Of a DNA stretch of 64,000 nucleotides, positions 7,062-41,021 are shown piece after piece. The stretch is from Solitalea lacus (GTDB lineage: Bacteria; Bacteroidota; Bacteroidia; Sphingobacteriales; Sphingobacteriaceae): positions 2,530,200 through 2,594,199 of the forward strand of contig NZ_CP091740.1 of the NCBI RefSeq assembly GCF_022014595.1, written 5' to 3'. Position 1 is the first letter of the stretch; each line of letters begins with the position of its first letter. The notes beneath the pieces were generated by a model. It was not told the DNA's origin. It searched no databases and saw only the letters and a program-made list of their open reading frames with translations. The position numbers and the translations under genes were made by a program.

Positions 7062-8885
7062 TTAATTATTTGATTCCAGTTGTAATTCAGAAAGATATCG
7101 ATACAAACCATTATCTTTCAAGATCAACTCATTATGAGTGCCCTGTTCAATTACTTTTCCTTTTTCAAGGACTACAATTTTATCAGCTTCACGAATTGTG
7201 GATAAGCGGTGAGCAATAATTATTGACGTTCTGTTTTTCATTAACTCTTCTAAAGCTTCCTGAACCAAACGCTCCGACTCTGAATCAAGCGAGCTTGTGG
7301 CTTCATCTAAGATTAAAATAACAGGGTTTTTAAGCAATGCTCTAGCGATAGCAATACGTTGACGTTGACCTCCTGATAATTTTACCCCTCGTTCACCCAC
7401 CATGGTATCGTAGCCTTCAGGAAAAGTCATGATAAACTCATGAGCATTGGCCCTTTTGGCCGATTGGATAATTTCCTCATCCGTAGCGCCTATCTTTCCA
7501 TAAGCAATATTCTCTTTAATACTTCCACCGAATAAAAGTACATCCTGAGGAACTATTGCAACCTGACTACGGATATCTGTTAATGAATAAGCCGAAGCAG
7601 GTAAACCATCAAAAATTAGTTGCCCTTGTTGAGGTTCATAAAAACGTAATATTTGAGAAACAATAGTCGATTTTCCGGCACCACTCGGCCCAACAATCGC
7701 TACTTTTTCTCCAGCCTTTGCTGTAAAGCTGACATCATTCAACACCTTAACTTCCGGACGTGAAGGATAGTGAAAAGAAACATTCTCAAAGGCTAAATCC
7801 CCTTTAATTATTTGCTCTTTCTTATCTATATCCTTAAAATCAACAGGCTCACTAGATTCATTCAACAACTCTACAACGCGTTCAGTGGCTCCGAGCGTTT
7901 TCTGAATTTGAGCAAGAATTTCGGCAAAGCCTCCCATTGCACCGCCAACAAAACCAGCATACAAGATAAATGAAATAAAATCCTTGATTTCGATTTTACC
8001 CATTTGCACTAAACTAGCTCCATAAACAGCAATTGAAATAATAGCTCCAAAAAGGCCAAGAGTAATAAAAATTACAAATGTCCCCCTGAACTTAGCTCCC
8101 TTCATTGCCAAACCAACAACTTGATTTATACTTCTAGTATATCGGTTGGCTTCATATGCTTCGTTTGTAAATGCTTTTACATTTGAAATACCTTGCAATG
8201 TCTCTTCTACAATTGTATTTGATTCAGCTAATTTATCTTGTGCCTTGCGAGCAATTTTACGAATGAACCTTCCAAAAAATATAGCAATGAGAATTAAAAC
8301 AGGTAGCACACAGAGAATAAATAGGGTGAGTTCCTTCGATATAATTGTTACTGCTGCAATACCAATAATCAGAATAATCAACTGCCTTAAAAACTCTGCT
8401 AATGTAGTAGTAATACTATCCTGGATTTGTGAAAGATCAGATGAGATACGGCTATTCAATTCGCCTACTCGACTTTGAGCAAAGAAATGCATCGGTAGGC
8501 ATATTAAATTAGTATAAACATCCTTTCTAATAGCTGCAACTGTTTTTTCCGAAACCTCAACAAACCATAAAATGCGAAAAAATGAAAACATAGCAGCTAT
8601 AGCCAATGTTCCGAAAAGCACCAATGCTATTTCCTTAATTTTTGAAAGATCGCCGTGTTGAAGTGAACTCGTTGCAACACCTACCAATTTTCCCATTTCC
8701 ATAGGAATGTAAAGAAATGCAAAAGTTGAGCATACTAAGAAAAACATACCCATACCGAATTTATAGCGATAGGGCCTTATGTATTTCAATAAGGTTAATG
8801 CGTGTTTTAAAGATTCTTTGGAAATTTTTGCTTTGGGGAGTTCCTTTTCTGCAGGATTACCACTATTTAATCGCTGACGCGCCAT
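7062..8885 (-). CDS. ABC exporter, fused permease-ATPase (MsbA-like)
   Basis: 607 residues, the size of a half-transporter that works as a homodimer. Residues ~30-330 hold six membrane helices (ABC type-1 exporter fold). Residues ~360-607 are the nucleotide-binding domain with Walker A GPSGAGKST, Q-loop region VPQDVLLFGG, signature LSGGQRQR, Walker B VILILDEATSSLD and the H-loop IIAHRLSTI. All catalytic elements are intact. This family flips lipids or exports hydrophobic compounds and peptides; the cargo cannot be told from sequence. MsbA (lipid A flippase) is one possibility. No partner gene is adjacent. Confidence 0.92.
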   Translation of the reverse strand: MARQRLNSGNPAEKELPKAKISKESLKHALTLLKYIRPYRYKFGMGMFFLVCSTFAFLYIPMEMGKLVGVATSSLQHGDLSKIKEIALVLFGTLAIAAMFSFFRILWFVEVSEKTVAAIRKDVYTNLICLPMHFFAQSRVGELNSRISSDLSQIQDSITTTLAEFLRQLIILIIGIAAVTIISKELTLFILCVLPVLILIAIFFGRFIRKIARKAQDKLAESNTIVEETLQGISNVKAFTNEAYEANRYTRSINQVVGLAMKGAKFRGTFVIFITLGLFGAIISIAVYGASLVQMGKIEIKDFISFILYAGFVGGAMGGFAEILAQIQKTLGATERVVELLNESSEPVDFKDIDKKEQIIKGDLAFENVSFHYPSRPEVKVLNDVSFTAKAGEKVAIVGPSGAGKSTIVSQILRFYEPQQGQLIFDGLPASAYSLTDIRSQVAIVPQDVLLFGGSIKENIAYGKIGATDEEIIQSAKRANAHEFIMTFPEGYDTMVGERGVKLSGGQRQRIAIARALLKNPVILILDEATSSLDSESERLVQEALEELMKNRTSIIIAHRLSTIREADKIVVLEKGKVIEQGTHNELILKDNGLYRYLSELQLESNN

Positions 8886-8959
8886 CTATAATACTCTATC
8901 AGATTTTAACCATGCAAAATTAACAAAAATGCGACAGGCGCATTTTTCATGAGCGAATT

Positions 8960-9163
8960 TTACATTTTAATGATAAACATCTTTATAAATGTGATGACGG
9001 CTAATAGCCCACAAACAATCATTAATATTTTACCCGATCGATATAAATAAAAGTTTGTGCTTTTATCGGTATTCCACTTAATAAGGTTCATAACAACCAA
9101 AGTAAATCCCCCTAAACCGATTAAAGCCTCAAAAATAGAGATTATGACTAAATATACTTTCAT
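8960..9163 (-). CDS. Small membrane protein
   Basis: 67 residues from the ATG at 9163, which overlaps the stop of the preceding monooxygenase gene by one base (TAATG). This favours it over an upstream in-frame ATG at 9196 that would run 34 bp into that gene. There are two hydrophobic helices (VYLVIISIFEALIGLGGFTLV and GKILMIVCGLLAVITFIKMF with short charged linkers). No family is recognised. It is probably translationally coupled as the last gene of the three-gene operon with the monooxygenase and the SAM hydrolase. Confidence 0.55.
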   Translation of the reverse strand: MKVYLVIISIFEALIGLGGFTLVVMNLIKWNTDKSTNFYLYRSGKILMIVCGLLAVITFIKMFIIKM

Positions 9164-9459
9164 TAATATGTAATAGAATGCTGTGATAAAGACCATGCTT
9201 CGGCCTTTTCATTAAATAAGGGCTTGGTTTTAGCCCATGTACTTTTAAACAATTCTGATTGCCGATAGCTTTCTAAATCAGCTTCTGAATCCCAAAAACT
9301 TAAAGTAAAAAAACGATTCGATTCATTAACATCATTTAGTAACTCAAGATGTTTACAACCTTCAAATCCTCTGATCAATAGTTTTGATTCTTCAAAAATT
9401 TCTAAAAACTCTTCAACTTTTGAAGGTTCAAATGTCATTTTCACAACTCTCTTTATCAT
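9163..9459 (-). CDS. Antibiotic biosynthesis monooxygenase (ABM) domain protein
   Basis: 98 residues, a single dimeric alpha/beta-barrel domain. The pattern is typical of ABM: an N-terminal strand RVVKMTFEPSKVEEFLEIF, then GFEGCKHLELL, RFFTLSFWDSEADLESYRQSELF and a C-terminal FNEKAEAWSL. Family members act as small monooxygenases, haem-handling enzymes or proteins of unknown role, and the substrate is unknown. It starts 14 bp after the SAM hydrolase gene and its stop overlaps the next ATG. Confidence 0.8.
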   Translation of the reverse strand: MIKRVVKMTFEPSKVEEFLEIFEESKLLIRGFEGCKHLELLNDVNESNRFFTLSFWDSEADLESYRQSELFKSTWAKTKPLFNEKAEAWSLSQHSITY

Positions 9460-9473
9460 CTTTTTTAATTAAT

Positions 9474-10250
9474 CTATCGAAATTCTATCCGTACCATATC
9501 ACCTAAATGCAAGCCTAATAACCCGGCAGCATTTCCTTTATTAATGGCAATTTCTAAATATCCAGTAATGCTAAACAAGGCTAATTTTTCCCCTTCAGGA
9601 ACATCGTTATAATGTTTACTAATTCGACTAATTGATTCATTTCTTCTAAAAATAATATCAAAGTTGCGAGCTGCCACATTCATTTCATACACCTCACGTG
9701 ATATATTGGTGATCACATTTTGGAATGAATCAATGTACAAAACACTTCCCCTAATCATATTGCTTTCAACAATAGGCTGTATAAGTGTACGATGATTATA
9801 ATCCTTAATCTCGGTTCCAATATCCGCGGCTTTACCACCTTTTGCCAAATGACAAGCTGCCTTTACAAATACATCCAGCAGGGGGAAATGACCTAATTCG
9901 GCATTTGTAGAGAGCTTAATTTTAAAAATTTCAGTAGGGGCCTCATCAAACAACAATGAAAACACACCATTATCAGCACCTATAAATCTATGTCCATTAT
10001 ATTCAACTATCAGATAGTTAGGAGATTGATTATAATCAGGATCAATACCTATTATGTGGATAGAATCTTTTGGAAAAAATTTGTAACTATTTTTCAGAAT
10101 AAAGGCTGCTTGCGGTATATTGTAGGAAGAAATTTGATGGGAAATATCTACAATCCGAACCTCTGGAAGTTGACTTAAGATTGCCCCCTTTAGTGCTGCC
10201 TGATAAAAGTCACGATGCCCGAGGTCAGTTGTTAAGGTGATGATTGCCAT
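9474..10250 (-). CDS. S-adenosylmethionine hydrolase / hydroxide adenosyltransferase (DUF62 family)
   Basis: 258 residues. The family splits SAM into adenosine and methionine using water, and is related to fluorinases and chlorinases. Visible signatures: ITLTTDLGHRDFYQAALKG at the N-terminus (the Asp of TTDLG binds the ribose), VDISHQISSYNIPQAAF, the Asp/Asn-rich GADNGVFSLLF motif, and the C-terminal beta-barrel with GSVLYIDSFQNVITNI. No halogenase-specific loop is evident. It heads a minus-strand operon with the ABM protein and is divergent from phoH. Confidence 0.88.
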   Translation of the reverse strand: MAIITLTTDLGHRDFYQAALKGAILSQLPEVRIVDISHQISSYNIPQAAFILKNSYKFFPKDSIHIIGIDPDYNQSPNYLIVEYNGHRFIGADNGVFSLLFDEAPTEIFKIKLSTNAELGHFPLLDVFVKAACHLAKGGKAADIGTEIKDYNHRTLIQPIVESNMIRGSVLYIDSFQNVITNISREVYEMNVAARNFDIIFRRNESISRISKHYNDVPEGEKLALFSITGYLEIAINKGNAAGLLGLHLGDMVRIEFR

Positions 10251-10420
10251 TCGATATTATTTGGTTATTTTTACCGTTTGAAAATTTCCGGTCACAAATA
10301 TTGGAATTTTAAACAGAAAAATCCGCATCTGAAACCGCAACCATTAATGTTTATGCAACAATGCGATGAGGATAGCTGTTATTATATTAAGATATTTACT
10401 TTCATAAAATAAGTACGACT

Positions 10421-11389
10421 TTGAGTGAAGCTATTTTAAAACTTGAACATGTAGACCCAGTAGTTTTCTGGGGAGCGTCTAATGAAAACTTTGAGATTTT
10501 AAAACGGAATTTTCCAAAACTTAAAATCGTTGCCAGGGGAACTGTAGTAAAGGCTTTAGGTGATGAAAAGGAATTAGGGAATTTTACCGAAAAATTTAAT
10601 AATCTGACTGATCACCTTGAGAGATATAATCAACTGTCATCTCGAGATGTTGAAGTGATCTTAGGAATTCAACCAACCTCAACCATTAATATTAACCAGC
10701 AAGTTCATATAAATGGCGAAGGAGTTGGAAACAAAGAGGTTATTGTATTTGGTACAAACGGTATTATGGTGCGTGCGCGTAGTGAAAACCAACGTAAAAT
10801 GGTTGACAGCGCGCAAAAAAATGATATCATTTTTGCTATTGGCCCGGCGGGAACAGGTAAAACCTACACTGCTGTTGCATTGGCGGTACGAGCATTAAAA
10901 AACAAAGAAGTTAAGCGTATCATATTAACACGTCCTGCGGTAGAAGCAGGGGAGAACCTTGGCTTTTTACCTGGAGACTTAAAAGAAAAAATCGATCCGT
11001 ATTTACGTCCACTTTACGATGCGCTGGACGATATGATTCCGGCTGAAAAGCTAAAAACATATTTAGAGAATCGTACAATTGAAATAGCGCCATTAGCGTT
11101 TATGCGTGGACGTACGCTCGACAATGCTTTTGTAATTTTGGACGAGGCACAGAATGCAAGTGATATGCAGTTAAAAATGTTTTTAACTCGTATGGGACCC
11201 TCTGCAAAATTTATTGTAACAGGAGATATAACCCAGATTGACTTACCGAAAAAACAACAATCGGGTTTGTTTAAGGCACTTGAGGTTTTAAAGGGAATTG
11301 AAGGAATAGACTTGATTTACCTGAATGGATCAGATGTTGTTCGACATAAATTGGTTCGTCGAATTTTAGAAGCTTACGGTGATATATAA
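10421..11389 (+). CDS. PhoH-family ATPase
   Basis: 322 residues. The gene must start at TTG 10421: a stop lies in frame at 10388, no ATG or GTG lies between, and conserved sequence (EAILKLEHVDPVVFWGA) begins at once. A small N-terminal domain precedes a RecA-like P-loop core with Walker A GPAGTGKT (residues 141-148) and Walker B FVILDEAQNAS, followed by FIVTGDITQIDLP. PhoH proteins are cytoplasmic ATPases linked to RNA metabolism. The divergent SAM hydrolase and downstream purC are its neighbours. Confidence 0.92.
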   Translation: MSEAILKLEHVDPVVFWGASNENFEILKRNFPKLKIVARGTVVKALGDEKELGNFTEKFNNLTDHLERYNQLSSRDVEVILGIQPTSTININQQVHINGEGVGNKEVIVFGTNGIMVRARSENQRKMVDSAQKNDIIFAIGPAGTGKTYTAVALAVRALKNKEVKRIILTRPAVEAGENLGFLPGDLKEKIDPYLRPLYDALDDMIPAEKLKTYLENRTIEIAPLAFMRGRTLDNAFVILDEAQNASDMQLKMFLTRMGPSAKFIVTGDITQIDLPKKQQSGLFKALEVLKGIEGIDLIYLNGSDVVRHKLVRRILEAYGDI

Positions 11390-30147: not shown

Positions 30148-30267
30148 AAGAACAAGTGTAAATTATTAAGTGAAATATATTTTCAACGAACTATCGATTC
30201 ATGCTATCGATTTTCAACAGAAAATGACAATTATTAATTCTAAATAGATTTGGTGAAAACTGAAGTT

Positions 30268-32358
30268 ATGATCAGAAAAAAAATGCCTTTGGTAAACAGG
30301 GAAGTAAGCTGGCTGGCCTTTAATGACCGTGTACTGCAGGAAGCCTGTGATCCAACTGTGCCGTTAATTGATCGAATTCGTTTTCTAGCCATTTTCTCCT
30401 CCAACCTTGATGAATTTTTTAGAGTTAGGGTTGCAACCGTTACACGACTCTCCAAACTAAAAAATGCGGCCCGTTTCAATATGGGGTTCCAACCAATAAA
30501 AATTTTGGCCGAAATTCAGGAAATTGTAAAAAAGCAACAAGTTAGGTTTGATCATATTTACAACAACGTAATTATCCCTGAACTGGCCGAGGAGAAAATA
30601 TTTATCATCAACGATGCCCAACTTAACGTTTCAAGAGGACAGTTTGTGCGCAATTATTTCAAGGAAAAGCTGCTTTCAACTCTAGTACCGATTATGCTTG
30701 ACGGGTTAACTGAGTTCCCTGAATTGAAGGATGAATCAATTTACCTTATTGTTCAGCTCTCAAAATTAAAAGGAAGCAGTAAACCTAAACGGGCTTTAAT
30801 TGAAATCCCTACTGATGTTCATTCCCGGTTCCTGATATTACCCGAAACCAATAACCTTAAATACATTATTCTGTTGGATGATGTAATTCGTTATTGCCTT
30901 GAAGACCTGTTTTCAATCTTTAAATACGATACTTTTCAAGCCCATAGCATAAAGCTAACGCGTGATGCTGAAATGGATCTTGACAATGATCTGAACCTTA
31001 GTTTAGTTGACAACATTTCTAAAAATCTGAAACTTAGAAAAAAAGGAAACCCTGTTCGTTTTACATATGATTCCGATATGTCTGATGAATTGTTAACCTA
31101 TCTGATCAGGCGAATCGGACTGAAACCAACAAACTTAATTCCAGGAGGTCATTATCATAATTTCAAAGACTTTATGTCTTTTCCAAATGTCGGACGTAAG
31201 GAACTTGAATATTCTAAGATGTCGGCTTTGCCAATTCCAGATATTGCCATTGGCGAAAGTATACTGAATGTAATATCTAAACGCAACCTATTAATCAACC
31301 TGCCGTACCAAAGTTTTGATTATGTGATCCATTTTTTGCGCGAATCGGCTATAGACCCTAAAGTTGTTTCAATTAAAATTACACTGTACCGTCTAGCACA
31401 AAACTCCAGAATTATAAATGCACTAATAAACGCAGCAAAAAATGGCAAAAATGTATTGGTGTTACTCGAGTTAAAGGCTCGTTTTGATGAAGAAAACAAT
31501 ATATATTGGACTCAAAAATTAGAAGAAGAGGGCATAAAAGTTTTGTATGGAATTTCTCAATTAAAAGTGCATTCAAAAATATGTCTAGTAACTCGTAAAG
31601 AAAACAATAAGCTCGTCCATTATGGCAATTTAGCTACCGGTAACTTTAATGAGAAAACGGCTAATATCTATGCTGATCACAGCTACTTCACTGCCGATCC
31701 ATTGATTACCAAAGACATGGACAATCTTTTTGCTGATTTAGAGAAAGGCCTATTGCTTTCAACCTATAAAATTCTTTTGGTTGCTCCATTGGAAATGCGA
31801 AAAAAAATCACTCGTTTAATTGATCGTGAAATATCGAACGCAAAAAAAGGCGTCGACAGCTACATAATTCTAAAAATGAATAGCTTAAATGATGAAAGAA
31901 TGATTTACAAACTTTATGAAGCAAGCAGGGTAGGAGTTAAAATAAAATTGATCATCAGAGGCATCTGTTGTTTAGTACCAGGAATAAAGGGTGTAAGTGA
32001 AAATATTGAAGTAATAAGTATAGTAGATAAGTACCTTGAACACGCTAGGGTATTTATCTTTGCAAATAATGGTAAGGAACAAATTTACCTTTCATCAGCC
32101 GACTTGATGAACCGCAATCTGGATAATCGGGTTGAAGTGGCATTTCCGATTATTGATAAGGAAAGTAAATCTATTGTGAAGGAAATTATCAATATACAGC
32201 TAAGAGACAATACAAAAGCTCGAATTATTGATAAAGAACAAGAAAACAATTATAAGGAAAAACACAACGACGAAAGTATAAATGTACGATCCCAGATTGA
32301 AACATATAACTTTTTAAAAAGTCGTTTAAAAAAAACTCAACTGAATGTCAACTTTTAA
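30268..32358 (+). CDS. ppk1: Polyphosphate kinase 1
   Basis: 696 residues from ATG 30268 (in-frame TTG and GTG lie six and five codons upstream). It makes polyphosphate from ATP by a phospho-histidine intermediate. The N-terminal domain has the standard NREVSWLAFNDRVLQEA and IFSSNLDEFFRVRVA. The catalytic C-terminal half is phospholipase-D-like: LKARFDEENNIYW, LKVHSKICLV (active-site His), YGNLATGNFNEKTA, and YLEHARVFIF carrying the second conserved His. The C-terminal ~40 residues are charged. Its stop is 12 bp before the ppx start, so synthesis and breakdown genes form one operon. Confidence 0.95.
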   Translation: MIRKKMPLVNREVSWLAFNDRVLQEACDPTVPLIDRIRFLAIFSSNLDEFFRVRVATVTRLSKLKNAARFNMGFQPIKILAEIQEIVKKQQVRFDHIYNNVIIPELAEEKIFIINDAQLNVSRGQFVRNYFKEKLLSTLVPIMLDGLTEFPELKDESIYLIVQLSKLKGSSKPKRALIEIPTDVHSRFLILPETNNLKYIILLDDVIRYCLEDLFSIFKYDTFQAHSIKLTRDAEMDLDNDLNLSLVDNISKNLKLRKKGNPVRFTYDSDMSDELLTYLIRRIGLKPTNLIPGGHYHNFKDFMSFPNVGRKELEYSKMSALPIPDIAIGESILNVISKRNLLINLPYQSFDYVIHFLRESAIDPKVVSIKITLYRLAQNSRIINALINAAKNGKNVLVLLELKARFDEENNIYWTQKLEEEGIKVLYGISQLKVHSKICLVTRKENNKLVHYGNLATGNFNEKTANIYADHSYFTADPLITKDMDNLFADLEKGLLLSTYKILLVAPLEMRKKITRLIDREISNAKKGVDSYIILKMNSLNDERMIYKLYEASRVGVKIKLIIRGICCLVPGIKGVSENIEVISIVDKYLEHARVFIFANNGKEQIYLSSADLMNRNLDNRVEVAFPIIDKESKSIVKEIINIQLRDNTKARIIDKEQENNYKEKHNDESINVRSQIETYNFLKSRLKKTQLNVNF

Positions 32359-32370
32359 ACCTTTATACTC

Positions 32371-33288
32371 TTGAGATACGCTGCTATTGACATAGGATCA
32401 AATGCCGTAAGGCTACTAATTGCCGATATTGTAGAGATCAATGAGGAAATTAGTTTTAAGAAAAACACCCTGGTAAGGGTTCCACTCCGCTTAGGTGACG
32501 ATGCGTTTTTAGATAAACGAATCTCTGATCGTAAAGTGAAAGATTTGATGAAATCCATGTCGGCCTTTAAAAACCTCATGGAAGTTTACAAAGTTCAAGA
32601 TTATATGGCTTGTGCCACCTCTGCTATGCGCGAGGCAGAGAATGGACAGGAGGTCGTAGATCTAATAGCAAGTGAAGCCGGCATACAACTTGATATTGTT
32701 ACTGGAAAACGAGAAGCAAATATTATTTATTCCAGCCATATTGAAAAATACCTCGACTCGCGACGTACGTATTTATACATAGATGTTGGAGGAGGGAGTA
32801 CTGAAGTTTCGGTATTCTCAAACGGAGTCTTAATAGATTCAAACTCATTCAATATAGGAACAATTCGTATGCTTGATAATCAGGACACTGAAGAAACCTG
32901 GAGGGAACTAAAAAACTGGATCAAAGAAAACACTAAAAACTATAAAACCATTTTTGGAATTGGTACCGGGGGTAATATCAATAAAATATTTAAAATTTCC
33001 GGGGAAAAATTAGGAACACCGCTAACATTTACCAAGTTAAAAGCCATGTATGATTATCTCAACTCATTTTCGCTAAAAGACCGGATTAACGTTTTGGGAT
33101 TAAAAGAAGACCGGGCCGATGTAATTATTCCTGCTTCTGAAATTTTCCTTACCCTGATGCGTTGGGCAGGTATTAAACAAATGTATGTTCCAAAAGTGGG
33201 TTTGGTTGATGGAATTGTCCATTTACTAATTGAAAAGAATTACCCTAAAGTGGTTTCTATAACTGAGTTTAAAGAAAACTTAAACTAA
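32371..33288 (+). CDS. ppx: Exopolyphosphatase (Ppx/GppA family)
   Basis: 305 residues starting at TTG 32371: the frame is open only back to the ppk1 stop, there is no ATG, and the ASKHA phosphate-1 motif AAIDIGSNAVRLLIA begins at once. Other signatures: ACATSAMREAENG, YIDVGGGSTEVSVF and FGIGTGGNI. At ~300 residues it is the short form with only the two-lobed ATPase-like core, lacking the HD domain of E. coli Ppx/GppA. It hydrolyses polyphosphate from the ends, or pppGpp; which one is not decided by sequence. Confidence 0.92.
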   Translation: MRYAAIDIGSNAVRLLIADIVEINEEISFKKNTLVRVPLRLGDDAFLDKRISDRKVKDLMKSMSAFKNLMEVYKVQDYMACATSAMREAENGQEVVDLIASEAGIQLDIVTGKREANIIYSSHIEKYLDSRRTYLYIDVGGGSTEVSVFSNGVLIDSNSFNIGTIRMLDNQDTEETWRELKNWIKENTKNYKTIFGIGTGGNINKIFKISGEKLGTPLTFTKLKAMYDYLNSFSLKDRINVLGLKEDRADVIIPASEIFLTLMRWAGIKQMYVPKVGLVDGIVHLLIEKNYPKVVSITEFKENLN

Positions 33289-33837: not shown

Positions 33838-34368
33838 ATGGAGACTCTAAAATGGTTAGTTGATCCGCTGCATAGCCAAATAATGTTTAAGGTCAAACAT
33901 TTAATGATTGCAACATTAACGGGTCGATTCCAGGATTTCGACCTGATGGTAGAAACTGAAAATGAAAGCTTTAACAAAGCAACTACTATTCAGTTCAATG
34001 CAAAAGTAAAATCTATCGATACACATAATGTTGATAGGGACGAGCATCTAAAATCAGCCGATTTTTTTAACTCCGATAAGTTTCCCCTGATCAGCTTTAC
34101 AACAACAAACTATCAAAAAAGTAAAGACCATGGCAACTTGGATGGCAAGCTTACAATTAGAGATGTAACCTTGCCGATCACATTTTCAGTTGAATTTGGC
34201 GGTATTATAGTTGACCAATATGGAAAAACAAGAGCTGGATTTAGCTTAACAAGTACTATTAGCCGCAAAGCATACGGTTTAGTTTGGAATGCAGTAACCG
34301 AGAGTGGCGGTATTGTGGTTAGCGACGAGGTTAAACTTATAGGTGAATTTGAACTAATAATGCAATAA
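33838..34368 (+). CDS. YceI-family protein
   Basis: 176 residues, the full lipocalin-like YceI domain without a signal peptide: KWLVDPLHSQIMFKVKHLMIATLTGRF (split), SIDTHNVDRDEHLKSADFFNSDKFPLISF, LTIRDVTLPITFSVEF and AGFSLTSTISRKAYGL. YceI proteins bind polyisoprenoids or similar lipids; here the missing signal peptide suggests a cytoplasmic version. It is first of a closely spaced group with the phosphoesterase-barrel gene, HD-PycTM gene and lipoprotein gene. Confidence 0.9.
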   Translation: METLKWLVDPLHSQIMFKVKHLMIATLTGRFQDFDLMVETENESFNKATTIQFNAKVKSIDTHNVDRDEHLKSADFFNSDKFPLISFTTTNYQKSKDHGNLDGKLTIRDVTLPITFSVEFGGIIVDQYGKTRAGFSLTSTISRKAYGLVWNAVTESGGIVVSDEVKLIGEFELIMQ

Positions 34369-34410
34369 AACCATAAATAAAATTGCCTAATGATAAGCAG
34401 GAGTTGGCAA

Positions 34411-37400
34411 ATGAAGCGAGCTTTTACTCTTCTAATATTTTTGGGCACAATCGGTCTGGCAAAGGCACAACAAGTTGATTCGATAATAAATCGAATACTT
34501 TTTATTGGTGATGCAGGGAAAATTGATGCACAACAAAAAGCGGTTATCAATGCCGCTGTAAGTAAAATAATTGGAGGAAAAACAATTGTATTCTACTTGG
34601 GAGATAACATATACCCAAAAGGAATGGAGCTGCCTGGAAGCAAAAAAAAGGAAGACACCGAAGAAATACTCAAGACACAATACTTGCCGTTCCAACAAAA
34701 GCAAACATCAGTTTACTTTATTCCTGGTAATCATGATTGGGACCGGATGGGAGCCGAAGGATTGCTCAAAGTAAAACGTCAATGGGCATTTCTTGAAGAA
34801 CAACAAGACACACTGATTAAAATGTTGCCTCCTAATGGTTGTCCGGGTCCGGTTGAAATACTTATTAATGAAAACACTGTTGTACTAGCCCTAGACAGTG
34901 AATGGTGGTTATTTCCATACAATAAAGAAAACCCGGATGCTGATTGTGAATGCAAAACTAAAGATGAAATCATAGCAAAGCTCCAGGAGTTACTGCATAA
35001 GCATTCCTCAAAAAATATAATTCTAGCTACCCACCATCCATTTTACAGTTATGGCAATCATGGAGGCTATTTCTCATTTACGGATCATGTATTTCCTTTT
35101 ACGGCCCTTAATAAAAGCCTTTATATTCCCCTTCCCGTCATCGGTTCGCTATATCCATTACTTAGATCATTGCTTCCTAACCCTGAAGATTTAAAGCATC
35201 CTAATTATGAAAACTTAAGAAACAGAGTAGGGAATGTATTTACAGACTATCCTAATATGGTTCAACTTTCCGGACACGAACACGGAGTACAGTTTATTCA
35301 AAGGCAAAATTTACATTTAGTGAGTGGATCAGGTGCTAAAAACAGTTATGCAAAAAAAGGAGGAGGCTCTTTATTTTCAAGTTCGTCATCTGGTTTTATT
35401 ATGGCTGATTTTTTAATTAATAAGGACATAGTTTTCACCGTTTATACGCAGGATGATGATCAAATTAAACCTCAATTTACATTTAGAAAGCAATATGTAC
35501 CCATTCCGTTAATACCGAAAGACATTTATCAACCAATTTTTAAAGACAGTATTGATTTACGGTTATTCGCTCGCTACGATAGCGTTAGCAAATTTCATCG
35601 TTTTTGGCTGGGGGAAAACTACCGAAAAGAATATGCTGCCCTTACCCGACTCCCAGTACTGAAAATGTCAATAATAGAAGGTGGGTTAATTCCAACTCAA
35701 CGTGGAGGAGGATTTCAAACCGTCTCAATTCGATTGAAAGATAATAATGGTAAAGAATGGGCCTTGAGGAGTGTAGAAAAATACCCTGAAGTAATTGTAC
35801 CAGAAAACTTAAGGGAAACGTTTGCAAAAGACTGGGTCAAAGATAACATGTCATCACAACACCCATTTGCGGCATTAATTGTTCCACCAATTGCCCAGGC
35901 TGTTGAAGTACCCCATTCTAATCCTACAATAGGAGTGGTTTCTGCCGATAAAAATTTAGGACAGTATAATCAATTATTTGCCAACAAAGTAGCACTGTTA
36001 GAAGAACGAGAACCTTGGGGAAAATCGGATAACTCAGAAAAAATGCTGGCAACACTAAATGCTGATAATGATAATTCAGTTGATAAAGAAACCTACCTAC
36101 GCGCCCGAATACTGGACTTACTTATTGGGGATTGGGATCGGCACTTGGATCAATGGCGGTGGGCCTATCAAAAGACAGGAAAAAATAAACATTACATTCC
36201 TGTACCAAGGGATCGAGATCAGGTATTTTATTTAAATAATGGTGTAATACCCAAAATTGCATCTCAACGCTGGCTATTTCCATTTCTACAAGGGTTTAAT
36301 GATGAAGTTAGAAATGTAAACACGTTTTTCTGGAAGGCAAGATTGCTCGATGGTCGTTTTCTAACAGCCCTAAGTCAGCAGTACTGGAGTCAAACGACCC
36401 ACCAATTTGAAACAACAGTAACAGACAGTTTACTCAACTACGCACTAAAACAAATGCCAGCATCAGCCTATAGCTTAAGGCATCAGCAATTATTCAGTGT
36501 ATTGCAAAAGCGCAGGTCAAATTTGGTTAGTGAAATGAACCGTTATTACAGTTTTCTACATAAAATAGTTGATATACAAGGGAGCGATAAAAACGAATAC
36601 ATCAATGTAAGGGATAATGTTCAGGATGGCTTAGAAGTACTGATCAGAAAAATCAGTAAAGAAGGAATACTAGAAGATACCATTTATCAAAAAACATTTA
36701 CTCCTGAATTAACTAAAGAAATAAGGATATATACGCTAAAGGGAAACGATAGCCTAATAGTAAACAATCTAAATTCTAACATAAACATCAGGTTAATTGG
36801 AGGCCAGGGAGATAAAAAATACGATATTCAAAAATCAAAGGAAAACATAAGGCTTTACGACAAGGAACAAGGCTCAACATTTACTGGAAATGATGCTAAA
36901 AAACTAAAAAAACACCTTTCCAATGATAGTCTAAATACAGCATTTGAAATGGTAAATTTATACAATGTTCCCATGTTTATTATTGCGGGAACCTATAATG
37001 TTGATGATGGTGTATTACTTGGATTAGGATACAAATTTATTAGACAGGAAAGTTTCCGAAAAAAACCTTACGCTAGCATGCATCAAATAAGTGTTATCCA
37101 TTCTTTTTCTACCAAAGCCTATCGAATACGTTACAGCGGGGAATGGATACATACAATCAATAATGCAGATTTTACTGTCAAAGCCTATATAAATGCCCCT
37201 AACAATACCATGAATTTTTTTGGCAGGGGAAACGAAACCGAATTAGATAAATCAGAAGGTTACAAAACCTATTACCGTACCCGCTTCAATTATTATGTAC
37301 TTGAAACGGGGTTTCGTTGGCGCTTTAATACAGCTTCTTCCTTAACAATTGGGCCGGCAGTTCAATATTACAATTATAATTCGCAGGATAATGAAGACCG

Positions 37401-38025
37401 GTTTATCAACAATTCATCACAAATTGGTTCTTACGACAGCACATCTATTGATCAAAACAAAACTCATATCGGATTTGCAGCCGGATATCTACTAGATAAA
37501 CGAAACAACAAAATATTACCGCAATGGGGAACTTACTTAAGCTTAAAATTAGTGGGATATTTTGGAGTCGGTTCTGAAGTAAAATCCTATGGGCAGATAA
37601 TCCCCGAGCTTGCAGTTTACAAAAATATCAACGCAAAATCATCATTGGTATTGGCAAACAGAATAGGAGGAGTGGTTACAGCTGGAAAATCTACTTTTTA
37701 CCAATCAGCATTTTTAGGTGGACACGAAAATTTGTTAGGATACCTCCAGTACCGCTTTGCCGGAACTCATTGCTTTTATAACAATTTAGAATTAAGAGCT
37801 AAAGTAAGCAATGTTGCCGGATATATTCTCACAGGTCAGCTGGGTGTTATTGGTTTTTATGATCTTGGCAGAGTTTGGGAAACAGGGGAGCACTCAAAAA
37901 AATGGCATAACGGTTTTGGCGGCGGTATATATTTTGCACCTGCTCAACTGGCCGTTTTAAAATTTGTTATGGGTAAATCGACAGAAGGTTTTTATCCATA
38001 CTTAACAATTGGTATGAGGTTTTAA
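34411..38025 (+). CDS. Calcineurin-type phosphoesterase - kinase-like domain - outer-membrane barrel protein
   Basis: 1204 residues from ATG 34411 (an in-frame ATG at 34390 adds seven codons before the signal peptide AFTLLIFLGTIGLAKA). Residues ~30-330: metallophosphoesterase with GDAG, GDNIYP, GNHDW, THHP and SGHEHG, all metal ligands in place. Residues ~430-660: a region with WALRSVEK, a later LEERE, GDWDRHLDQW near residue 583 (counted from 34390) and PRDRDQVF near 608, a layout reminiscent of atypical kinases (HipA/FAM20-like); this is inference. Residues ~870 to the end: 16-strand-type barrel like BamA/TamA, ending LTIGMRF. It probably sits in the outer membrane with the enzyme domains in the periplasm. 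It starts about 40 bp after YceI and ends 28 bp before the HD-PycTM gene. Confidence 0.85.
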   Translation: MKRAFTLLIFLGTIGLAKAQQVDSIINRILFIGDAGKIDAQQKAVINAAVSKIIGGKTIVFYLGDNIYPKGMELPGSKKKEDTEEILKTQYLPFQQKQTSVYFIPGNHDWDRMGAEGLLKVKRQWAFLEEQQDTLIKMLPPNGCPGPVEILINENTVVLALDSEWWLFPYNKENPDADCECKTKDEIIAKLQELLHKHSSKNIILATHHPFYSYGNHGGYFSFTDHVFPFTALNKSLYIPLPVIGSLYPLLRSLLPNPEDLKHPNYENLRNRVGNVFTDYPNMVQLSGHEHGVQFIQRQNLHLVSGSGAKNSYAKKGGGSLFSSSSSGFIMADFLINKDIVFTVYTQDDDQIKPQFTFRKQYVPIPLIPKDIYQPIFKDSIDLRLFARYDSVSKFHRFWLGENYRKEYAALTRLPVLKMSIIEGGLIPTQRGGGFQTVSIRLKDNNGKEWALRSVEKYPEVIVPENLRETFAKDWVKDNMSSQHPFAALIVPPIAQAVEVPHSNPTIGVVSADKNLGQYNQLFANKVALLEEREPWGKSDNSEKMLATLNADNDNSVDKETYLRARILDLLIGDWDRHLDQWRWAYQKTGKNKHYIPVPRDRDQVFYLNNGVIPKIASQRWLFPFLQGFNDEVRNVNTFFWKARLLDGRFLTALSQQYWSQTTHQFETTVTDSLLNYALKQMPASAYSLRHQQLFSVLQKRRSNLVSEMNRYYSFLHKIVDIQGSDKNEYINVRDNVQDGLEVLIRKISKEGILEDTIYQKTFTPELTKEIRIYTLKGNDSLIVNNLNSNINIRLIGGQGDKKYDIQKSKENIRLYDKEQGSTFTGNDAKKLKKHLSNDSLNTAFEMVNLYNVPMFIIAGTYNVDDGVLLGLGYKFIRQESFRKKPYASMHQISVIHSFSTKAYRIRYSGEWIHTINNADFTVKAYINAPNNTMNFFGRGNETELDKSEGYKTYYRTRFNYYVLETGFRWRFNTASSLTIGPAVQYYNYNSQDNEDRFINNSSQIGSYDSTSIDQNKTHIGFAAGYLLDKRNNKILPQWGTYLSLKLVGYFGVGSEVKSYGQIIPELAVYKNINAKSSLVLANRIGGVVTAGKSTFYQSAFLGGHENLLGYLQYRFAGTHCFYNNLELRAKVSNVAGYILTGQLGVIGFYDLGRVWETGEHSKKWHNGFGGGIYFAPAQLAVLKFVMGKSTEGFYPYLTIGMRF

Positions 38026-38052: not shown

Positions 38053-39267
38053 ATGAACTACACTGAACTTACCAGGCAAATTGAAGATCATATAAAGCAA
38101 TCTTTTACAGAAAATATATCTCAAAAACTGCCGTATCACAATTTTGGCCATGTTGAAAAAGTGGCTAAAAATGTATTGTTAATGGCAGAATACTACCGGC
38201 TTAATGATAAAGACAAATTTATAGTAACTGCCTCAGCATGGTTTCATGATATTGGGTATTTAACTGGTTGTAACAACCATGAAGAGAAAGGAGCTGATGA
38301 AGCTACTGTTTTTTTAACAAAATATGGTATTGAAGCCAGCATAAATGAGGTTGTGACAAGCTGTATATTAGCAACTAAACTACCACAATCACCTAAAAAT
38401 TTACTTGAGCAAATAGTTTGTGATGCTGATTTATTTCACCTTGGAACAGACGACTTTAATGAGGGCAACAAATTAATGCGCCAAGAATATGAATTAAAAA
38501 GCGGGAAGAAAATTGGAAAAAATAAATGGCGAAAAAAGACCGTGACATTCATGCAGGAGCATCATTTTCAAACAGAATATTGCCAAACCAACCTAAATGC
38601 CAAAAAGGCTCAAAACCTTGCTGATTTAAAGCTGAAAATTAGTGAAGCCGAAAAGGAAGAAAGCCCTGATCTGTCCAAGGATATAAATGCGTTAAATCTT
38701 AATCCGATTCTTAATCAGGATAAAGAAAAAAAAGACAACCGCCCATCCCGAGGCATTGAAACCATGTTTAGAATCAGTTCCAATAATCACCAACGTTTAA
38801 GTGATATGGCTGATAATAAAGCCCATATTATGATTTCTACAACTGCAATAATCCTATCGGTTGTATTGAGTTTGCTGCTGCGAAAACTGGAGGACAATCC
38901 CTACTTAGTCTTCCCTACATTTCTTTTGCTGGTTATTTGCGTGATCACCTTGGTTTTCTCGATTTTAGCAACCCGTCCATCAATACCATCAGGTGTTTTT
39001 ACACAGGAAGATATCGATAAGAAAAAGGTTAACTTGTTGTTTTTTGGCAATTTTTATAGAATGAGTTTAGAAGATTATACCAAAGGTATGCTTGAAATGA
39101 TGGACAGTCGGGAATTTCTGTATGGCAGTCTTATTCGCGATTTATATTTTCAAGGGGTGGTTCTGGGGAGAAAATACCGCTTGCTTCGCCAGGCCTATAA
39201 TGTATTTATGTTTGGAATTACAACCTCTGTTCTGGCTTTTATTATTGCTTCGTTTACTAAAATGTAA
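38053..39267 (+). CDS. HD phosphohydrolase fused to a Pycsar-effector-like membrane domain (PycTM)
   Basis: 404 residues. Residues ~25-170 are an HD domain with H29, H33, H65-D66 (WFHDIGYL) and D124/D126 (CDADLFHLG), so the metal site looks intact. A charged linker (~170-240) follows. Residues ~245-404 match the PycTM/DUF5706 type: ISSNNHQRLSDMADNKAHIMIS, two helices (TTAIILSVVLSLLL and FPTFLLLVICVITLVFSIL), a cytoplasmic segment with FFGNFYRMSLEDY, and a final helix. In Pycsar defence, PycTM proteins respond to cCMP or cUMP made by a PycC cyclase and disrupt the membrane. No cyclase is nearby; HD-PycTM fusions also occur as ordinary chromosomal genes in Bacteroidota. Its stop is 10 bp before the next ATG. 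Confidence 0.85.
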   Translation: MNYTELTRQIEDHIKQSFTENISQKLPYHNFGHVEKVAKNVLLMAEYYRLNDKDKFIVTASAWFHDIGYLTGCNNHEEKGADEATVFLTKYGIEASINEVVTSCILATKLPQSPKNLLEQIVCDADLFHLGTDDFNEGNKLMRQEYELKSGKKIGKNKWRKKTVTFMQEHHFQTEYCQTNLNAKKAQNLADLKLKISEAEKEESPDLSKDINALNLNPILNQDKEKKDNRPSRGIETMFRISSNNHQRLSDMADNKAHIMISTTAIILSVVLSLLLRKLEDNPYLVFPTFLLLVICVITLVFSILATRPSIPSGVFTQEDIDKKKVNLLFFGNFYRMSLEDYTKGMLEMMDSREFLYGSLIRDLYFQGVVLGRKYRLLRQAYNVFMFGITTSVLAFIIASFTKM

Positions 39268-39277
39268 AATCCTCCAT

Positions 39278-40138
39278 ATGAAAAAAATATTGGCAATTGT
39301 TTGCTGCTTTTTTTGGGTGTTATTGGCCACTGCATGCAATATAGATGCAAAACAATATAATTCTCCAAAAGGATATGATTTAAATAAGCCTGAAAAGTTT
39401 AATCTGCCACAAAGCATGCTTGAAGTATCAGGAATTACATTCAATAACAATAATCCCGATACGATTTATGCTATTCAAGATGAGGAAGGTAAACTTTTTA
39501 AACTGAACTGGAAAATAAAGAAGCAGAAGCACTCCCGGTTTGGAGTTAATGGCGATTATGAAGATGTAGCCATATTGAATGAAACCGTTTTTATATTGAA
39601 AAGTAACGGTCAACTTTTTTCGTTCCCCCTCAAACAAGCTTGGAAGGAAGATATTGAACATGTTAAAGTATATAAAAAGCTAATCCCGAAAGCTGAATAC
39701 GAAGGTTTATTTGCTAATAATGCCAGCAATCAGTTATATGTTTTGGTGAAAAAATCACCTGGAAATAAAAAACAGAAACTTTTAACAGGCGAAATTTTAA
39801 CCTATGAGAAAACCCCCGATTCGCTGTATAAATCAGGAAACTTCGAAATAAAACCACCAACCGATAAACAATTAACTGTTAAGGCTAAAGAACGTATTAA
39901 ACCCACTGCACTTTCTAAACATCCTATTACTGGGGAATGGTACATACTTACTTCTGCCAACAAATTATTGATTTTAGCTGATGTAAATTGGAATATCACC
40001 CAGGTCTATCAACTTAATTCATCAATCTTTAATCAACCCGAAGGAATTACCTTTGACAGCAAGGGAACACTTTATATCTCAAACGAAGGAGACGAACTTA
40101 ATGAAGGAAATATACTTCGATTCGAATATCGCCCCTAA
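39278..40138 (+). CDS. SdiA-regulated-like lipoprotein (beta-propeller)
   Basis: 286 residues from ATG 39278, chosen because it begins a lipoprotein signal peptide (KKILAIVCCFFWVLLATAC, lipobox LATAC) 10 bp after the HD-PycTM gene; the open frame extends further back only inside that gene. Mature part: LPQSMLEVSGITF, TIYAIQDEEGKLFKLNW, GDYEDVAILNETVFILKSNG, IKPTALSKHPITGEWYILTS, NQPEGITFDSKGTLYISNEGD. This repeat pattern fits the SdiA-regulated family, predicted six-bladed propellers. Function unknown. Confidence 0.75.
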   Translation: MKKILAIVCCFFWVLLATACNIDAKQYNSPKGYDLNKPEKFNLPQSMLEVSGITFNNNNPDTIYAIQDEEGKLFKLNWKIKKQKHSRFGVNGDYEDVAILNETVFILKSNGQLFSFPLKQAWKEDIEHVKVYKKLIPKAEYEGLFANNASNQLYVLVKKSPGNKKQKLLTGEILTYEKTPDSLYKSGNFEIKPPTDKQLTVKAKERIKPTALSKHPITGEWYILTSANKLLILADVNWNITQVYQLNSSIFNQPEGITFDSKGTLYISNEGDELNEGNILRFEYRP

Positions 40139-40253: not shown

Positions 40254-41021
40254 ATGGAAGGAGAGGAGGCCCTGCAATTAGAAGATTTCATAAGCAACGT
40301 TGCCACTCCATTGCTGCAGCGCTTAAAATTTACTCACCCATTGGCAAGTGATTCAATCGATACTTACTTTTTCAATTCTGATTACAATGATCCGGCACAC
40401 AAACACCGTAAATTTTTAGAACAATCAATGCAAACCATAAATATTGCTATAAATCAATATTTAGACCTATTTAGTAATGAATTACAACAAATTTACACTT
40501 GCTATTTTGAAAAATTCAGAACCGATGGGGTAGATTATGACATTTATATTGGCCAATTACTAGCGCCAGACAAACCTTTTGATTTGCTGTATGTTAAGAA
40601 TCTTCGTTTATGGCAATTAAAGTCAATGGCTGCAGTTGCAAAGCTTACTCACAGTTTATTGCCATTATTACCAATTCAACTGCAAACCACTCAGCTCATA
40701 TTTACTCATCCCAATACCATCGACATTTCATTCAGATATGATGAGCGAAGATTTGATGTTAAAGGTGCATACAACATCCGCTACCAGGTAATCAAGAAAA
40801 GAATTGATAAAGCTACTATCAAAAACACTGATGAGCACCTTACCCAAGTGGGCAAGATTGCCATTATCTACTTTAATCAAAAAGATGCAGATGAATACAT
40901 CCAGTTCATTCAATATCTTCAACAAGAAAATTTACATGAAGATGATATTGAAGAACTTGAACTTGAAAATTTACAAGGCATAAGTGGACTGAAAGCATTG
41001 CGGATATCGGTTAAACTTTAA
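40254..41021 (+). CDS. Protein of unknown function, resembles the C-terminal part of larger Bacteroidota proteins
   Basis: 255 residues, soluble, mixed alpha/beta, no signal peptide. Features: MEGEEALQLEDFISNVATPL at the start, an ITYFF-like middle with FEKFRTDGVDYDIYIGQLL, RRFDVKGAYNIRYQVIKKRID, KIAIIYFNQKDADEYIQFIQYLQ and LELENLQGISGLKALRISV at the end. From memory this resembles the C-terminal region of Bacteroidota GAF-domain proteins, which are much longer; low confidence. The frame stays open for ~35 codons upstream of the ATG (from 40149) without another start codon, as would be seen in a 5'-truncated gene. Confidence 0.55.
   Translation: MEGEEALQLEDFISNVATPLLQRLKFTHPLASDSIDTYFFNSDYNDPAHKHRKFLEQSMQTINIAINQYLDLFSNELQQIYTCYFEKFRTDGVDYDIYIGQLLAPDKPFDLLYVKNLRLWQLKSMAAVAKLTHSLLPLLPIQLQTTQLIFTHPNTIDISFRYDERRFDVKGAYNIRYQVIKKRIDKATIKNTDEHLTQVGKIAIIYFNQKDADEYIQFIQYLQQENLHEDDIEELELENLQGISGLKALRISVKL

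Follow-up and report, generated by a model that had tools for sequence, protein, structure and literature searches.

A gene in the 64,000-nucleotide stretch of Solitalea lacus DNA analyzed here (the window) encodes a putative outer-membrane protein, P0001, in which a TRAP-like phosphoesterase and a domain with a predicted kinase fold precede an Omp85 barrel in a single chain. We give even chances to the reading of P0001 as a kinase/phosphatase pair that is exported, anchored in the outer membrane, and directed at a substrate in the cell envelope; its activity, the opposition of the two reactions and their placement on the periplasmic side are what we infer. The three-part layout had been proposed from the DNA alone and is borne out by Pfam, predicted folds and profile matches.

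A Pfam scan of P0001 placed two families above cut-off, Metallophos at residues 28–221 (E = 9e-9) and Omp85 at residues 913–1167 (E = 4.8e-11). Residues 350–760 between them have no Pfam match, and the middle domain belongs to no family in the copies of Pfam and NCBIfam searched. The full-length model has a pLDDT of 89.9 and a pTM of 0.80. An earlier ATG at 34390 extends the frame (34390–38025, 1211 aa), and the residue numbers of the original prediction are those used here plus 7. The start of the protein, MKRAFTLLIFLGTIGLAKAQ, is predicted to be a typical signal peptide, supporting the earlier view of a secreted protein. Orthologues have signal peptides of a similar kind; lipobox-like sequences take their place in several lineages, three-part proteins included.

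Table 1. Features of P0001 and its neighborhood (positions are those of the window).
Feature	Positions	Strand	Residues or length	Basis or remark
P0001, three-part protein	34411..38025	+	1204 aa	ORF; single copy in its own 4.4-Mb genome
Predicted signal peptide, MKRAFTLLIFLGTIGLAKAQ	34411..34470	+	1–20	Read from sequence
TRAP/purple-acid-phosphatase-like phosphoesterase	34474..35445	+	22–345	Pfam PF00149, profile
Kinase-fold middle domain	35458..36690	+	350–760	AlphaFold2, Foldseek, VIA, conservation
Gly-rich turn			432–434	Model
Strand beta3			449–454	Model
Helix alphaC			471–482	Model
Strand beta5			527–532	Model
Beta5/hinge			527–534	Model
Catalytic loop			D576-R-H-x-x-Q581	Middle domain
Metal motif			D601-R-D603	Middle domain
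All-beta linker	36565..36918	+	about 719–836	Full-length model secondary structure
16-stranded Omp85 barrel, C-terminal Phe	36967..38022	+	853–1204	Pfam, model
Polyphosphate kinase PPK1	30250..32358	+		Pfam; recurrent neighbor
Ppx/GppA exopolyphosphatase	32371..33288	+		Pfam
YceI-like protein	33838..34368	+		Pfam; 42 bp upstream of the 34411 start
HD-PycTM membrane protein	38053..39267	+		Pfam PycTM E = 1.3e-35, HD E = 1.4e-4; most consistent neighbor
SdiA-regulated/phytase-like lipoprotein	39278..40138	+		Pfam PF06977 E = 8.7e-11; recurrent neighbor

The N-terminal domain is a calcineurin-type phosphoesterase, as first proposed from its motifs, and a profile of 33 such domains with intact motifs matched human TRAP/ACP5 (2bq8) with an E value of 3.6e-16. 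Residues D34, D65, N66, Y68, N107, H108, D109, H208, H217, H289, and H291 are invariant in this 33-sequence subset. The seven metal ligands, including the purple-acid-phosphatase Tyr, and the two catalytic His residues are present in P0001 at what we take to be the corresponding TRAP positions, and are invariant or nearly so in the 33 relatives. Unlike TRAP, the P0001 phosphoesterase shares its chain with a kinase fold and a barrel. In a wider set of 50 sequences, several phosphoesterase motifs are degenerate, with the kinase motifs kept. We judged a metallophosphoesterase from Riemerella, whose phosphatase activity has been published, to be a different protein, as it is classed among the type IX secretion effectors.

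The C-terminal barrel, likened to BamA/TamA in the original prediction, has the 16 strands of an Omp85 barrel in the full-length model, and its best Foldseek matches are BamA barrels. A POTRA domain was looked for ahead of the barrel in this model and not found; the region is all beta, with no POTRA-like pattern of helices and strands. P0001 thus has the barrel of the BamA/TamA/PlpD-type Omp85 proteins but not their POTRA. PF00149 and an Omp85 barrel, both of which Pfam finds in P0001, define the ‘Metallo’ subfamily of Omp85 proteins, and both there and in P0001 PF00149 is joined to a POTRA-less barrel (Heinz and Lithgow, 2014; PMC4104836). That study labels PF00149 a metalloprotease, whereas PF00149 is a calcineurin-like phosphoesterase family, and its description of the subfamily reports no kinase-like domain between PF00149 and the barrel. 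The phosphoesterase-Omp85 architecture is already published; for an Omp85-kinase fusion, or for the kinase domain of P0001, we found no report in the open-access literature.

An AlphaFold2 model of the middle domain, built on an alignment of 97 relatives, is of high confidence (pLDDT of 94.2, pTM of 0.91) and has the two lobes of a kinase. Eight structures match in Foldseek at E ≤ 1e-3, each of them with a kinase fold (CtkA, PI4KII, and Rio2), the best being CtkA of Helicobacter pylori (E = 1.5e-5); weaker matches are to a FAM20C-type Golgi casein kinase (4kqa, E = 2.8e-3), CotH, and HipA. VIA-align Z scores were 15.1 for PI4KII(beta), 13.9 for CotH, 13.2 for CtkA, 11.6 for VPS34, and 10.8 for HipA, and the PI4KII superposition has an rmsd of 4.4 Å over 258 residues at ∼14% identity. 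The modeling and fold comparison by which the kinase-like reading was to be judged thus returned kinase folds and no unrelated fold. Although the type II phosphatidylinositol 4-kinases give the highest Z score, P0001 is unlike them in being bacterial and exported and in its low identity.

By sequence alone, nothing in PDB or Pfam matched the middle domain significantly, known kinase families included, a point against the kinase/phosphatase pair. Matches to a beta-lactamase and a telomerase protein (E of 0.06–0.5) were taken as chance because they missed the motif region. The best PDB match of the middle-domain profile is CtkA, at an E value of 0.11 that is weak alone, over the catalytic loop LGNFDRHNGNW; a DRH loop is common to both proteins. 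Profile-profile comparison with CotH gave a P value of 2.5e-4 over 324 columns (0.013–0.83 for reversed and unrelated controls), pairing D576 with the N-W-D and D601/D603 with the D-x-D metal motif of the spore-coat kinases, which supports distant kinship only. The CotH family model itself (PF08757) scores above cut-off in none of the 97 members and touches only one (E = 0.018). For HipA, the profile-profile P value of 0.04 is near background, and PF07804 has no match in Pfam scans of P0001 and the middle-domain relatives; CtkA and HipA are also cytosolic or translocated, whereas P0001 would be anchored in the outer membrane. Nor did the Pfam PI3_PI4_kinase models match in these scans, though the PI4KII fold is the closest. 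Elsewhere in the same genome, outside the window (L189, G000:C1:2647467-2648088), stop-broken HipA_C matches probably mark a hipA pseudogene.

The kinase-like reading had been drawn from four strings, WALRSVEK, LEERE, GDWDRH, and PRDRDQ, which start at residues 449, 530, 573, and 599 of P0001, all present and in that order; their conservation shows this to be more than chance, and the poor conservation that would have told against the reading was not seen. Among the 97 relatives, which are 26–53% identical to the P0001 middle domain, R453, D478, E531, D569, D574, D601, D603, and G611 are invariant, and K457, R577, and H578 (96 each) and D576 (95) nearly so, D576 being lost in two. Order and conservation agree with GDWDRH and PRDRDQ as the catalytic D-R-H and the metal Asp, so the catalytic and metal Asp residues of the kinase superfamily are in place. 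The other two assignments changed. LEERE, proposed to hold the helix Glu, lies at residues 530–534 in strand beta5 and the hinge and was rejected for that role; the alphaC acid appears to be D478, the only invariant residue of that helix. The proposed beta3 Lys, K457, is well conserved but sits three residues beyond the strand, whereas R453 lies inside it; from the strand boundaries in the model, R453 appears to occupy the expected Lys position, with K457 just after. Kinases carry Asn at the catalytic-loop position of Q581, five residues past D576, which is Gln in 95 of the 97 relatives and Asn in 2.

To our knowledge, the periplasm is normally without ATP, and this, together with the apparent Arg at the beta3 Lys position and the loss of D576 in two relatives, counts against the kinase/phosphatase pair. 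In the main rival reading, the middle domain would be a pseudokinase that binds a nucleotide, polyphosphate, or a phosphorylated lipid as a sensor and controls the phosphoesterase or the barrel, with no phosphate transfer. The missing ATP, the invariant R453, the Gln in place of the catalytic-loop Asn, and neighbors concerned with phosphate and nucleotides would all suit such a sensor, but retention of the catalytic Asp and of both metal Asp residues is the pattern expected of enzymes, and the module persists where there is no phosphoesterase or barrel to regulate; we consider a pseudokinase possible, though somewhat unlikely. The kinase superfamily also includes SelO and SidJ, which transfer other groups, and the unusual beta3 and catalytic-loop residues could instead reflect transfer of, for example, AMP, as by SelO, to an envelope protein. 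We doubt this strongly: the D-R-H order fits PI3K/CtkA-type phosphotransferases, and neither a SelO nor a SidJ structure is among the Foldseek and VIA matches listed for the model, itself weak evidence. For the kinase/phosphatase pair speak the high-confidence model, the Foldseek and VIA matches, the CtkA-loop and CotH alignments, the near-invariant catalytic residues, and the TRAP-like active site.

The middle domain is present in 141 of 395 sampled Bacteroidota genomes, and in 73 of 171 genera, as the three-part fusion, with a barrel only and no phosphoesterase, or stand-alone. At two loci (L018 and L022), a lipoprotein kinase-domain gene directly adjoins a separate lipoprotein phosphoesterase gene, the frames overlapping in L022, an adjacency that favors the pair. 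Stand-alone forms at L113 and L114 carry a membrane anchor at the N-terminus; given these lipoprotein and membrane-anchored forms and the lipobox-like N-termini of three-part proteins, all inspected forms look exported, again in line with the pair. Against it, the phosphoesterase is missing or degenerate in several relatives with intact kinase motifs, so the two activities need not always go together. On a tree of the 97 sequences, the three-part form is gained or lost at least seven times along branches with good support, and it clusters far more than in shuffles; the counts of change are approximate because two ‘mid only’ rows (L079 and L088) may be frameshifts or contig ends. At L126, two divergent stand-alone, lipoprotein-like kinase-domain genes lie back to back (7435–9091 and 9161–10775), one of which has Ser for the catalytic Asp and looks like a pseudokinase. 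A Bacteroidota-type locus on a MAG contig labeled Williamsia (Actinomycetota; L065) is probably mis-binned.

The barrel might instead display the enzyme domains on the cell surface, where they would act on environmental phosphate compounds and not on envelope targets. An Omp85 barrel with N-terminal enzyme domains recalls PlpD, a patatin-Omp85 protein proposed to reach the surface (PMC4104836). We find this distinctly improbable for P0001, whose model lacks a POTRA between the passenger domains and the barrel; in several lineages the N-terminus is lipobox-like and an obvious surface-export signal is missing, the stand-alone forms are lipoproteins or membrane-anchored, and phosphate scavenging would have little use for a kinase domain.

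The YceI, P0001, HD-PycTM, and SdiA-regulated lipoprotein genes all have the same orientation in the window and are separated by short gaps. Across 49 three-part loci with adequate flanks, an HD-PycTM relative occurs in 43, a GAF-like protein of 770–820 aa in 35, an SdiA-regulated protein in 33, and PPK1 in 25. An HD-PycTM relative is found in 121 of 141 genomes with the kinase domain, vs 45 of 254 without it (related species, not independent points; many of the relatives counted match the PycTM part alone), and lies within 6 kb of the kinase domain in 88 of the 112 genomes where both could be placed. The linkage is kept across families despite changed gene orientation and, with the co-occurrence, supports the kinase/phosphatase pair; we found no report of the PycTM/PPK1 link in the open-access literature. 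PF18967 (PycTM) is named for Pycsar anti-phage effectors; here, HD-PycTM is a phylum-wide conserved neighbor of PPK1 and an outer-membrane protein, and the setting does not look like a defense island. At 40254–41021, where relatives carry the GAF-like protein, the window has a 255-aa copy matching only its C-terminal third, and the same genome has a relative of full length elsewhere (802 aa, 39% identity).

If P0001 is a kinase/phosphatase pair, the barrel would fix it in the outer membrane and the middle domain would belong with the PI4KII/CtkA/CotH/HipA phosphotransferases, D576 being the likely catalytic base, Q581 standing in for the usual Asn, and D601 and D603 probably binding metal. The middle domain would modify a protein, lipid, or glycan of the envelope, and the TRAP-like domain would take phosphate off the same or a linked substrate. 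HD-PycTM, at the inner membrane, and PPK1, both genetically linked, might supply or sense the phosphate currency. A more specific and decidedly tentative version, which we consider unlikely, is a self-contained phosphorylation switch at the outer membrane, in which a periplasmic kinase using a non-ATP or exported donor such as polyphosphate is opposed by the phosphatase of the same chain and tied to HD-PycTM for trans-envelope phosphate signaling in Bacteroidota.

The weak fold match to FAM20C, a secretory-pathway kinase, concerns an enzyme that acts outside the cytosol. In animals, FAM20C and TRAP are separate proteins that share secreted phosphoproteins as substrates, whereas P0001 has both kinds of domain in one chain. 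The middle domain defines an exported kinase-fold family that keeps its catalytic residues, occurs in about a third of the sampled Bacteroidota genomes, and has no entry in the Pfam and NCBIfam copies that were searched. It gives the ‘Metallo’ Omp85 subfamily, already published but still unexplained, a function to seek, with HD-PycTM as a suggested partner. If phosphate is transferred, P0001 would offer a test of reversible phosphorylation where ATP is absent, and would resemble, in a single bacterial chain, the FAM20C–TRAP pairing of kinase and phosphatase in animal secretion.
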